Shown here one piece after another: positions 26,311-30,312 of a stretch of DNA of 64,000 bases. Numbering within the stretch: the first letter of the stretch is position 1; each line of letters begins with the position of its first letter. Below the pieces are notes generated by a model. The model saw only the letters and a list, made by a program, of their open reading frames with translations. It was not told the DNA's origin and did no database searches. Location of the stretch: positions 1 through 64,000 of the forward strand of contig JAFLCP010000020.1 in assembly GCA_017303505.1 (NCBI GenBank). Direction: 5' to 3'. This DNA is from Planctomycetota bacterium (lineage in GTDB: Bacteria; Planctomycetota; Planctomycetia; Pirellulales; Pirellulaceae). The translations under genes were made by a program, and so were the position numbers.

Positions 26311-26385
26311 ACGGCTGAGGACAGCCGTGCTACGTGACGGCTGAGGACAGCCGTGCTACGTGACGGCAGAGGACTGCCGTGCTAC
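26311..26385 (-). repeat. Three REP elements at the RAYT 3' end
   Basis: Copies at 26311-26333, 26337-26359 and 26363-26385. On the minus strand each reads GTAGCACGGC followed by the second arm of an 8-9 bp stem (ACGGCTG..CAGCCGT or ACGGCAG..CTGCCGT). The TAG of the last copy is the stop codon of the RAYT gene. Confidence 0.85.
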
Positions 26386-27077
26386 GTGCGATGCCAATAC
26401 AAATACTGATCGGAAGATAGATTCGCGCGGATGGGATTTTCTGCGATGTAACGTTGGTACGATTCGAATTCCTCGGCGTTACGAACCAGTCGATCAAATG
26501 GCTCCGGTTGCCATAAGTCCCCCTTACGCCCCAAGTGCTTATTGATCAGGCGAGCCGAATACCTTAACCAACTTGGTCGAATCGTTTCAAAACAGTTTTC
26601 ATCCCGAAACTGAAATAAGATATGAATATGATTCGGCATGATCACAAAACTGTCCAGATCGTATCGGTCTGCGTCGAAATAATGCAAAACACCTGCCATG
26701 ATTTGGGCTACCTCTGGCTGTCGAAACCAGCATTCACCATGACACTTGTCGAGCTCAATGTTGACTTGCTGCGATACCTTCTCTCGAACTCCATTTCGAA
26801 TTTCGGGCTGCATGCTTTGCGCAAAGAACCGATAGTCCTGCCAACGAAACGGAATAGCATTCGTAGCTTTTCGTCGAGCTGGATCGTTTTGCCAAAGCCA
26901 TTCCGTCACTTCAGCTTCAATGCGTTCGATCGCCGACTTGGGTAACGAATCCATAAACCTCATCGTCCAGAAAACGGTCACGCCCGGCTGAAACCAATGA
27001 GGCAAGAATCGCTTCGTGATCTGATAGTCGTTGGCTGGTTCGAAAAGGTGGAACTGCTCTGTTTCGTGTTGGTCCAT
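26382..27077 (-). CDS. REP-associated tyrosine transposase (RAYT, Y1/HUH)
   Basis: A 231-residue Y1-family (IS200-like) single-strand DNA transposase. The HUH motif is HIH in FVIMPNHIHILFQF (about residues 149-151), and the catalytic tyrosine is in FESYQRYIAENPIRANL near the C-terminus, the YI..NP pattern typical of RAYTs. The N-terminal 60 residues (GVTVFWTMRFMDSLP) include the first beta strand. AAGGAG precedes the ATG by about seven bases. Flanked on both sides by REPs, its expected substrates. Appears intact. HxH and Tyr are both present in one chain, in contrast with the protein at 29382. Confidence 0.92.
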   Translation of the reverse strand: MDQHETEQFHLFEPANDYQITKRFLPHWFQPGVTVFWTMRFMDSLPKSAIERIEAEVTEWLWQNDPARRKATNAIPFRWQDYRFFAQSMQPEIRNGVREKVSQQVNIELDKCHGECWFRQPEVAQIMAGVLHYFDADRYDLDSFVIMPNHIHILFQFRDENCFETIRPSWLRYSARLINKHLGRKGDLWQPEPFDRLVRNAEEFESYQRYIAENPIRANLSSDQYLYWHRT

Positions 27078-27415
27078 AAAAAATCTCCTTGTGATATAAA
27101 TGTCTATGTGTAGTGTATGGGTGTGATGTGTTGTGTGGCAATTAGAGGTAGGTGTTTTTTTGTAATACGTGTTTTTTTGTGTAGGTTATGAATGTGGGAT
27201 ATCGCTGGGGACGGGAAGAGAAGTAGAAATAGAGAGGTGGAAGAGAGAGGAAACGGCAGGGGACTGCCGTTTGACGCTTACGGCTGAGGACAGCCGTGCT
27301 ACGTGACGGCAGAGGACTGCCGTGCTACTATTGGTTTGAACAGCCTAAGCCGGTAAACTGTGGGGGTATTGGCCAAATCGCCATTTTTCATTATTCACTT
27401 TTAGCGAGATTCCAC
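27078..27415. other. RAYT upstream region, T-rich then purine-rich
   Basis: Between the RAYT start and the TlpA gene. 27095-27190 is TG-rich with two GTGTTTTTTTGT-like tracts; 27210-27252 is a purine run on the plus strand (GAAGAGAAGTAGAAATAGAG and on). REPs follow at 27253-27328. No gene recognised; the RAYT promoter should lie here. Confidence 0.5.
27253..27328 (-). repeat. REP elements on the RAYT 5' side
   Basis: Palindromes at 27253-27270 (no GTAG head), 27280-27302 and 27306-27328; the last two carry a minus-strand GTAG head. Same stem families and order as the cluster at 26311-26385, with one internal copy fewer. Confidence 0.85.
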
Positions 27416-29212
27416 GTGGCTAACGCCCCCTACCCTACCCCGCCAGAAACGTTCAGCTCGAAGGGACTGTCGAAACAACTCTTTCGCATCGCCCTTCTCT
27501 CCCTTGTCGGAATCTCGTTCGTTGGTTGCGATAGCGGCAAAAAAGATGAAGAAATCAAAGCGGGCAATAGCGGCTATGCGGTAGCCGATGATAAAGGAAC
27601 CACTCCGGCCGCTGACAAAAATGAAACCAGCCCACCGGCAACAGAAAACATACCAGCCGCTGCTCAAGATTTAGCCAATAAAGCCGCTCAACAGCCAACC
27701 ACCAGCGGCGGAACACCGGCCGCTGCCCCAACCCCTAATACACCAGCGACCTCAACACCCGCTGGCTCAACACCCGCTGGCTCAACACCGGCAGCTTCAA
27801 CCACTGCAGGCTCGACACCAGCTGGAGCCACCCCTGGCAAAACGGGCGGTGTGGTCAATGAAGCTCCGTCCTTTGCAACCCTAACGTATCCCACCTCCGA
27901 AGAAAGCACCGACCTTATCGCCTTCTTGATCAAGGCCGATACTGCTGTACGTGATCTGGCGGTGTGGGGAAGCCAAGGCATGGTGCCAGAAGCTCAGTTC
28001 CGCGCTCAAGGAGCGCGAATCTTGGAATTGAAATTAACGGCTGCCACCAAGTTGTTAGAGAAAAAAGATCTCAATGAAAACGACTTGCGACTCGCACGCA
28101 AAGCCAAGTTACAAGCTCTCTCGCAACTCAGCGGCCTAGGTGATGTCAAAGCGAACGACGCACTCCGAGCCTATGTCGATGAAGTGATCACCAGCGGTGA
28201 CCCTGAACTCGTTCACAACGCTCGCTTGATGCAATTGGGCTACGCTGCCGAAGCGCTCATGGGTGGTAAGTCCAAAGATCCCAATGAACTGCTGTCGCGC
28301 ATCGACGAAGTTTTGTCCGATGAAAACTATCGTGGTGCAGTCGAATTGATGCAGGTCCGACAAGCCACCGGTTTGCTCGAACAAATGGGCTACAAAGAAC
28401 AAGCCACGGCCGTCCGACAAAAAGTCGGCAAGCTGTTCGAAAATAGCAAAGACCCCAACCTCGCCAACGCCGCTTGGCAGATCTTGGCCGAACAACATCC
28501 AGCTACCAATGCAATGCGGGATGCGATGCAAGCTGTCATGAAAGGTGAAGCGAGCGCCAAAGAACAATTGAAGGCAGCTGCCGAACGCATGATCGCAGAA
28601 CTGCCACCGGAACGCACTGTGATGTTTTTGGTAAGCCAAATAGTCAATGTGGAATTTAGTGGTCAACCAGAAGCAGCGTCGATTATGGTCGACGTGGCTA
28701 CAGCCAATCTGGATAAAATCCAAGATGAAGCCGCCAAAGCCGAAGTGGCCAAACTTTTCGAAGGCTTTAAGTTGCGACAAGGTATTGTCGGTAAAGAAGT
28801 TTCCTTTGCAGGTTTAGTCGACACTGCCGGCAAGCCACTCGATTGGAACGCTTATGCGGGCAAGGTGGTCTTAGTCGATTTTTGGGCTACTTGGTGCCAA
28901 CCTTGTTTAATCGAATTGCCCAACGTTGAAAAGGCATATGCATCGCTCAAAGATAAAGGCTTTGAAGTGATCGGCGTAAACCTCGACGACGATGTGGCGG
29001 ATTTGCAAGCTTTCTTTAAGCAAAAAACATTGCCATGGATAACCTATCGCAGCTCGGACACTACCAAAATCGGTTTTGAAATGCCGCTCGCCAAAGAGCT
29101 CGGTGTGCAAGCGATTCCGTTTGTGTTGCTCATCGGCAAAGATGGCAAGGTAGCCAAATTGCATGTTCGCGGTGAAGGACTCATTCCAGCAATCGAAGAG
29201 TTGCTGAAGTAG
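27416..29212 (+). CDS. TlpA-type thioredoxin lipoprotein
   Basis: About 598 residues from GTG 27416; the frame is open further upstream, but only because it reads through REP sequence. The signal peptide has lipobox LLSLVGISFVGC. A low-complexity Ala/Pro/Thr/Ser linker (TPAGSTPAGSTPAAST-like repeats) leads to a helical middle domain (about residues 150-450) of unknown role. The C-terminal 140 residues are a TlpA/ResA thioredoxin domain with GKVVLVDFWATWCQPC, the CxxC at residues 494-497. Expected to be a periplasmic thiol-disulfide reductase. The stop TAG is part of a GTAG head at 29209. Confidence 0.9.
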   Translation: MANAPYPTPPETFSSKGLSKQLFRIALLSLVGISFVGCDSGKKDEEIKAGNSGYAVADDKGTTPAADKNETSPPATENIPAAAQDLANKAAQQPTTSGGTPAAAPTPNTPATSTPAGSTPAGSTPAASTTAGSTPAGATPGKTGGVVNEAPSFATLTYPTSEESTDLIAFLIKADTAVRDLAVWGSQGMVPEAQFRAQGARILELKLTAATKLLEKKDLNENDLRLARKAKLQALSQLSGLGDVKANDALRAYVDEVITSGDPELVHNARLMQLGYAAEALMGGKSKDPNELLSRIDEVLSDENYRGAVELMQVRQATGLLEQMGYKEQATAVRQKVGKLFENSKDPNLANAAWQILAEQHPATNAMRDAMQAVMKGEASAKEQLKAAAERMIAELPPERTVMFLVSQIVNVEFSGQPEAASIMVDVATANLDKIQDEAAKAEVAKLFEGFKLRQGIVGKEVSFAGLVDTAGKPLDWNAYAGKVVLVDFWATWCQPCLIELPNVEKAYASLKDKGFEVIGVNLDDDVADLQAFFKQKTLPWITYRSSDTTKIGFEMPLAKELGVQAIPFVLLIGKDGKVAKLHVRGEGLIPAIEELLK

Positions 29213-29260
29213 CTCGGCTCAGGATCGCTCCCGCAACAATGGCTTCAGCCGTTGTTGCGG
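29209..29260 (+). repeat. Left end: GTAG head plus 14-bp hairpin
   Basis: GTAGCTCGGCTCAGGA followed by CCGCAACAATGGCT, TC, AGCCGTTGTTGCGG. The GTAG supplies the stop codon of the TlpA lipoprotein gene. Confidence 0.75.
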
Positions 29261-29381
29261 AGGTTATGGTGAGGCTACAAAAGTATGCCCCCCTCTCTTT
29301 TCCTGGCTTCCCTTTACTGTTTGCGTAGGTTAACATATGTGAACTATTTGCCTTATTCTGCTGCACGGACGCGGGAACTTA

Positions 29382-30200
29382 TTGACGGAGTATCTTGCCG
29401 TGTTATTTACGCAGAAATTAAACGAATCGCCTTATTGCCTTCGCTTCGCTTACACAACTTGGCTTACTCATGAAGTGCCAAAGACATCCATACAACTTGC
29501 GGTTCAACGGGCGCAAGTTGAACTGCAGGCGAGTGAAATAAATCTGCTGGAACATCGAATCGCCGACAATCAAATTCAGTTGTTGCTTAGCACTAAGCCG
29601 ACACACTCGCCCACTTTCATCGCGCGAGTCACCAAAGTAAAAATGTCGGCCGCTCTTTCAGCGCAAAATCACAATCAAGTACTGAAACGCGAATTTTCTC
29701 TTCGGTCGGTTGGGGAGAACACAACAAAGGATCTTTTGAGCTATCTCCAAAAGCAGGTTTTGCGACGGAAGTTTGTCGATGATAGGTTTTCTGATTCACT
29801 AACGCCTTTTTCGAGGGCGTACAAGCTAACGCCAGGTGAATGCCAGAAAACCTCTTACGGCTACTATTGGTACGATCTACATTTGGTACTTGGCACCACG
29901 GACCGTTACTGCGTCGCTGAGGAGAGGGTCTGGAAGGCAATTGTCGAGGCAACAGAGAATTGGCATCAAGAGCTTGGTTATCAAATAAACTCTATCTCGC
30001 TTTTGCCTGATCACGTTCATTTATTGAATCGCCCCTGTATCAATACATCACCTCAACAGGTTGGCGAAGGCCTTGTTGAGCGACTCAATCGCATTCCGAT
30101 AATGCAGAACATTTACCGCCCCACATTTTATGTGGCAACGCATGGTGTTTATGCGATGAACGCGGTACGCAATTTGCTGCGTGCGAAGAGTGAAGGCTGA
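29382..30200 (+). CDS. Tandem two-domain Y1 (IS200-like) transposase, split active site
   Basis: A 272-residue protein from a TTG start; no ATG or GTG precedes it in frame. It contains two Y1-transposase-like domains in series. Domain 1 (about 1-126) has QIQ at 64-66 where HUH is expected (DNQIQLLLSTKPTHSPT), but keeps a tyrosine in LLSYLQKQ (Y121). Domain 2 (about 155-272) has HVH at 211-213 (LLPDHVHLL), but at the position matching Y121 has L265 (AVRNLLRAK). Y1 enzymes work as dimers, often pairing the HUH of one subunit with the tyrosine of the other, so this chain could form one composite site. Function is inferred. An inactive degenerate relic is the alternative. Confidence 0.72.
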   Translation: MTEYLAVLFTQKLNESPYCLRFAYTTWLTHEVPKTSIQLAVQRAQVELQASEINLLEHRIADNQIQLLLSTKPTHSPTFIARVTKVKMSAALSAQNHNQVLKREFSLRSVGENTTKDLLSYLQKQVLRRKFVDDRFSDSLTPFSRAYKLTPGECQKTSYGYYWYDLHLVLGTTDRYCVAEERVWKAIVEATENWHQELGYQINSISLLPDHVHLLNRPCINTSPQQVGEGLVERLNRIPIMQNIYRPTFYVATHGVYAMNAVRNLLRAKSEG

Positions 30201-30255
30201 AAGAGTAAGGGATGTTTGTGGGGGGAACTTCGGTGAGCTAGCCACGCCATAACTT

Positions 30256-30312
30256 CCGCAGCAACGGCTAAAGCCATTGCTGCGGTGATTCGGCTCAGGA
30301 GAGCCGAGCTAC
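30256..30312 (-). repeat. Right end: inverted copy of the left composite repeat
   Basis: CCGCAGCAACGGCT, AA, AGCCATTGCTGCGG followed by TCGGCTC, AGGA, GAGCCGAGCTAC. On the minus strand it reads GTAGCTCGGCTC and on, like the left end. Its TAG is the stop of the 2-hydroxyacid dehydrogenase gene. Confidence 0.8.

Follow-up and report, generated by a model that had tools for sequence, protein, structure and literature searches.

The tandem Y1 gene and its flanking hairpins

The window, as we call the whole 64,000-nucleotide stretch of planctomycete DNA analysed here, carries an open reading frame at 29382–30200 (+) that was confirmed to be open throughout and encodes a protein of 272 amino acids (Table 1). 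A GTG codon at 29400, with GGAG just upstream, is a likelier start than 29382. The Pfam model Y1_Tnp matches the protein in two stretches (44 bits, cut-off 23), whereas its score with the NCBIfam RAYT model NF047646 (19.1) is under the cut-off of 80. A tandem paralogue of 270 amino acids, about 25–30% identical, is encoded on contig C90 of the same genome. At about 31% from the nearest relative collected, the window copy is divergent.

Table 1. Features at and around the tandem Y1 gene (positions in the window).
Feature	Position	Strand	Remarks
Tandem Y1 transposase gene	29400..30200	+	Homologue alignment begins close to 29400
Domain 1, Y1 fold	29403..29774	+	Tyr121/Gln125 present, Q64-I-Q66 in place of HUH
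Domain 2, Y1 fold	29844..30197	+	His211/His213 present, Leu265 in place of Tyr
Left REP-like unit	29231..29278	+	Hairpin 29231-29260 and 18-nt tail ending GGCTAC
Right REP-like unit, inverted	30238..30285	-	Hairpin 30256-30285 and tail ending GGCTAG (30238)
Outer 12-nt arm GTAGCTCGGCTC	29209..29220	+	Perfect inverted copy at 30301-30312
Right outer REP	30290..30312	-	Canonical form GTAGC-TCGGCTC-TCCT-GAGCCGA, read directly from the sequence

Inverted around the gene are two REP-like units, each a hairpin with an 18-nt tail (left AGGTTATGGTGAGGCTAC, right AAGTTATGGCGTGGCTAG). Most tandem genes of the family likewise lie between inverted REP-like hairpins of the same anatomy, with one hairpin type present in inverted orientation on the two sides instead of a left end and a right end that differ. 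The hairpins are cognate to their loci: the median score of the left-right match is 29.5, against 10.5 for flanks taken from different loci, and 40 of 53 loci exceed the 95th percentile of that different-locus control. A CTA[CGA] or TTAG tag, a motif defined after inspecting the flanks, follows the hairpin in 47 of 81 arms (22.7 expected by shuffling), and 35 of the 47 tagged arms have it at 16–19 nt from the stem. In some subfamilies this tag is absent and the tails are different (CCAGA, GCGAGA).

The outer GTAG arms (29209 and 30312) were also considered as ends of an element and were dropped, the right arm being a complete REP of another type. The GTAG arm built into this right outer REP pairs with 29209–29220, and the REP resembles that of a neighbouring gene. 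This neighbour, a single-domain RAYT-like gene at 26406–27077 (−), lies 2.3 kb upstream of the tandem gene, scores 60 bits with NCBIfam REP_Tyr_transpos (cut-off 80) and has five canonical REPs of GTAGCACGGCAGTCCTCTGCCG type on its two sides, at 26312–26385 and 27281–27328.

Homology of the two halves to IS200/IS605 transposases

The initial annotation had recognised two Y1-like domains in the 272-residue chain by eye, with residues Q64-I-Q66 and Y121 in domain 1 set opposite H211-V-H213 and L265 in domain 2. This numbering is correct, and Gln125, the Q of the Y---Q motif, is now added as a further part of the split site. The by-eye alignment was replaced by separate profiles of 32 domain-1 and 32 domain-2 halves, and these profiles, the two Pfam stretches and the hhalign comparison all confirm it. 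By hhalign, the two domains are homologues of one another (probability 93.9, E = 1.6e-7), and both are homologous to solved IS200/IS605 transposases. The domain-1 profile matches 2F4F at 2.4e-12 and IS608 TnpA (2A6M) at 1e-11; its Y and Q align with the catalytic Y and Q of structures of this type, and it has Q, L, V or T opposite their DHIH or DHVH. For domain 2 the profile match is to 2F4F at 7.2e-20; HxH is aligned, and R, L or K stands opposite the Tyr.

An AlphaFold2 model of the window protein, built from an input alignment of two sequences (the window protein and L055), is poor: its mean pLDDT is 50.6, and it is confident in part of domain 1 only. Foldseek searches with this model placed IS200-type transposases among the best matches, and we do not count them as evidence for the site because their E-values were weak and unrelated ferredoxin-like folds stood alongside.

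Conservation of the divided site

Overlapping samples of planctomycete genomes were searched for tandem proteins, which were found in 4 of 392 genomes of the phylum (full length), 38 of 199 of the family and 34 of 397 of the class. A further search of genome contigs returned L055 as the single tandem locus. No tandem homologue was found in the viral contigs searched, and the plasmids and phages searched gave single-domain IS200 matches and no tandem protein. The proteins are about 266–272 amino acids long and have two domains with Y---Q.

All 56 aligned full-length planctomycete tandem proteins carry YxxxQ in domain 1 and HxH in domain 2, and an HUH in domain 1 is seen in none of them. Counted by alignment column, Y and Q are present in 55/55 domain-1 halves and HUH in 0/55, while both H are present in 55/55 domain-2 halves, Y with Q in 0/55 and Y alone in 8/55; HUH, Y and Q occur together on none of 55 single halves. 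Apart from the Y of those 8 domain-2 halves, each half thus lacks what the other keeps, as the initial annotation had claimed for the window copy. In 26 single-domain Y1 controls from the same phylum, HUH was found in 23 and Y with Q in 24. Across 32 diverse tandem sequences (~20–30% identity), the invariant residues are G, Y and Q in domain 1 and V, H and H in domain 2, and no others.

A hold-out set of 23 proteins from other families of the class, retrieved with a model built from the tandem family itself, has YxxxQ in domain 1 in 23/23 and HxH in domain 2 in 22/23, with HUH in domain 1 in 0/23 and Tyr in domain 2 in 0/23. The sole exception, L203, has HxP in place of HxH in domain 2. The fused pseudo-dimer with one composite HUH and Tyr site, proposed from the window copy, had predicted this split, which held in the 56 proteins and, L203 apart, in the hold-out set. 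The search of planctomycete genomes that the initial annotation had suggested therefore found HUH-only and Tyr-plus-Gln halves to be conserved, and no collected homologue had HUH plus Tyr in each half, the finding named beforehand as a refutation of the proposal. The tandem family is widespread in planctomycetes, and its split is not a sign of a decayed copy: conservation across homologues excludes chance and decay as the source of the pattern.

A sub-clade of seven loci (L009, L100, L103, L105, L107, L108, and L110) has a Tyr in domain 2 with the metal-ligand Gln replaced by Trp, and still lacks HUH in domain 1. This sub-clade may represent a stage on the way to losing the second site.

Origin, selection, and interrupted copies

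A tree was built from 55 halves of each domain together with 26 single domains. In it, all domain-1 halves fall in one clade (support 0.96) and all domain-2 halves in another (0.88), the latter with one single-domain sequence inside it. One clade per half is consistent with a single fusion event, though the deep branches are uncertain because the domains are short. The genes are under purifying selection (NG86 dN/dS 0.08–0.36 in ten close pairs).

Seven homologous genes are interrupted by stops or frameshifts (L059, L104, L106, L113, L114, L099, and L101). Five of the seven are broken between the halves, both catalytic halves being otherwise readable, which could mean that decay has begun or that a split into two chains is tolerated. 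At and around 2520–2594 of L104, the linker of the tandem gene contains additional hairpin-rich DNA, possibly a REP insertion.

Dispersal of hairpins and copying of gene units

The hairpins of tandem genes are dispersed in their genomes. The window-type tail has at least 29 matches in the source genome, compared with 6 for a reversed control, and about 25 of them carry the window-type hairpin. Twelve distinct genomic copies of this hairpin keep its stem by two-sided changes at four pairs, and these compensatory changes exceed all or nearly all shuffles. The hairpin unit of the C90 paralogue has at least 41 matches. A third hairpin type is present at least 58 times in genome G480 and at least 10 times in its congener G515, and it was not found in three genomes with other types. 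These copy numbers (from at least 25 to at least 58) are below those of many REP families.

Gene units have been copied as well. In G480, one tandem gene is present in two copies with 98.5% protein identity; their similarity stops among the hairpins, and the DNA beyond one copy is unique. L086 and L060 are colinear across 3.8 kb, and the two cases together indicate that both copying and vertical inheritance occur. A precise end of the homology between related copies at the hairpins was considered and dropped, since the homology fades inside the hairpin-rich flanks. The suggestion of a domestication-type activity, made in the initial annotation, is accordingly borne out in part: the gene is associated with REP-like hairpins that are dispersed, but near-identical copies show that units are still being copied.

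Noncoding tandem units of 578–584 nt, each with one window-type hairpin and one hairpin of the C90-paralogue type, are arrayed on several contigs of the source genome (L174, L175, and L176, on C263, C293, and C170 of G000).

Relation to known Y1 systems

In IS608 TnpA, the active site is assembled in trans (PMC5934647, PMC6006769): H64 and H66 (with D61) come from one chain, and Y127 and the metal ligand Q131 (helix alpha-D) from the other (PMC5934647). The tandem family resembles class 1 IS200/IS605 TnpA (IS608, ISDra2, Sso/Sto TnpA) in having a Y1 domain in each half and Y---Q, and the five catalytic residues kept in the tandem chain are the set of one trans active site. It differs in that IS200/IS605 TnpA carries HUH and Tyr together in one ~150-aa domain and has two sites per dimer, whereas the tandem chain would have one. 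IS200/IS605 elements, which transpose as a unit via a single-strand circle, also have a left and a right end that differ, their subterminal hairpins lying on one strand, where IS608 handles both ends; the hairpins around tandem genes are instead symmetric, inverted and of one type.

With class 2 enzymes (TnpAREP/RAYT; REP, REPIN, BIME), the family shares inverted flanking hairpins that are dispersed, a gene of its own for each hairpin type, GTAG/CTAC-type tags where recognisable and, presumably, a one-site enzyme. E. coli TnpAREP is a monomer whose only Y1 domain carries both HUH and Tyr, with an Asn (N119) at the position of the class 1 Gln (PMC6006769), and it needs GTAG (PMC8266576). RAYTs have a single domain, HUH and Tyr in cis and a Y-motif ending in NP, and their GTAG/GTGG tag adjoins the hairpin on its 5′ side, whereas the tandem proteins have two domains, a split site and YxxxQ, and the tag enriched in their flanks lies 16–19 nt from the stem and is absent in some subfamilies.

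Class 3 TnpA-Y1 proteins, which occur in planctomycetes, acidobacteria, and proteobacteria, were reported to “resemble both IS and REPtrons” (Quentin et al. 2018; PMC6006769). They share with the tandem family a planctomycete host, a class-1-like Y motif and atypical repeated hairpins, but are single domains of 178 residues with Y----Q and a CnGA foot, as opposed to two domains in ~266–272 residues with Y---Q. That superfamily survey set aside proteins longer than expected, taking them for fusions or misannotations (PMC6006769), so the tandem family may have been filtered out there. The tandem family is neither a standard IS200/IS605 TnpA nor a standard RAYT, and would act like a mixture of the two.

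A proposed fused dimer with one remaining site

A single account probably covers these observations jointly, namely the fusion of a TnpA dimer, the deletion of one of its trans sites and the use of the product as a one-site enzyme that processes REP hairpins. A class 1 (Y---Q) IS200/IS605-type TnpA gene would have been duplicated and fused, once, in planctomycetes. Each site of the ancestral dimer would have been built in trans, from the HUH of one subunit with the Tyr and Gln of the other, and one of the two would have been deleted as a unit (domain-1 HUH with domain-2 Tyr/Gln), leaving domain-2 HxH with domain-1 YxxxQ. The chain would then fold as a pseudo-dimer, bind its cognate REP-like hairpin as single-stranded DNA and cut one strand at or near the tag, which where it can be recognised reads CTA[CGA] or TTAG and lies about 16–19 nt from the hairpin. 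Cleavage would proceed via a 5′-phosphotyrosine and the ends would be rejoined one at a time, with the outcome that REP-like hairpins, and now and then the gene unit, spread.

Since the family lacks both parts of the site formed by HUH(1) and Tyr(2) and has both parts of that formed by HUH(2) and Tyr(1), one trans site appears to have been kept. Assembly in cis would leave both sites dead, and the complementary loss is therefore evolutionary evidence for the trans arrangement. Taken with the travelling hairpins, it suggests that a two-site enzyme evolved into a one-site enzyme. One site might suffice because inverted ends of one type offer one recognisable end per hairpin per strand.

The same residues could, in an arrangement we regard as unlikely, work only in a dimer of two fused chains (domain-swapped or as two pseudo-dimers), which would restore two sites, paired cleavage and IS608-like strand exchange. 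IS200/IS605 TnpA is after all a dimer with two sites (PMC6006769, PMC5934647), and breaks between the halves, as in five of the seven interrupted genes, would be tolerable if the halves meet as separate chains. Those broken copies may simply be in decay, however, and two sites are not obviously needed where one hairpin type, inverted, makes up both ends. Given that two chains could pair, the obligate character and the restriction to single cleavage events that the initial annotation suggested for the pseudo-dimer are best kept conditional.

It is far less probable that the protein has been domesticated to bind hairpins without cutting DNA, its conserved residues serving binding or folding. Such a role would fit the loss of one of two ancestral active sites, and domestication has been proposed for other Y1 families (TnpAREP; PMC8266576), but the invariant residues are the nucleophile and metal ligands with nothing else comparable, and both the hairpins and the gene units were copied. 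Least credible, and close to negligible, is a decayed tandem IS200 pseudogene in which complementary loss is a coincidence; the divergence of the window copy and the loss of two residues per half would agree with decay, yet the same split recurs in 56 homologues and 23 hold-out proteins, dN/dS is well under 1 and the window frame is open.

Within the favoured account of a fused dimer with one remaining site, it is conceivable, though we put this forward tentatively and at slightly less than even weight, that the fused TnpA dimer and TnpAREP both ended as monomers that process REPs with one site, the former by fusion and the latter through a cis site. The end state would be shared because symmetric hairpin ends give one cleavable end per strand. 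If true, the family would provide a naturally occurring Y1 enzyme with a single site that obligatorily assembles in trans.

Among the openly licensed papers searched, none was found to describe a tandem Y1 protein whose site is divided. What is known of trans assembly and of the use of two sites by IS200/IS605 transposases comes mainly from IS608 and ISDra2. With one site apparently removed and the subunits fused, the capacity of a lone trans site becomes testable in a single chain. The family also ties IS-type transposases to REP-processing enzymes, by what seems to be a second and independent route to REP association. Membrane adenylyl cyclases, which have one catalytic site and one lost site, offer an analogy only. 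They too consist of fused, diverged homologous domains that form a pseudo-heterodimer (PMC9552081), in a fold and with a chemistry that are unrelated to those of the Y1 tandem family.
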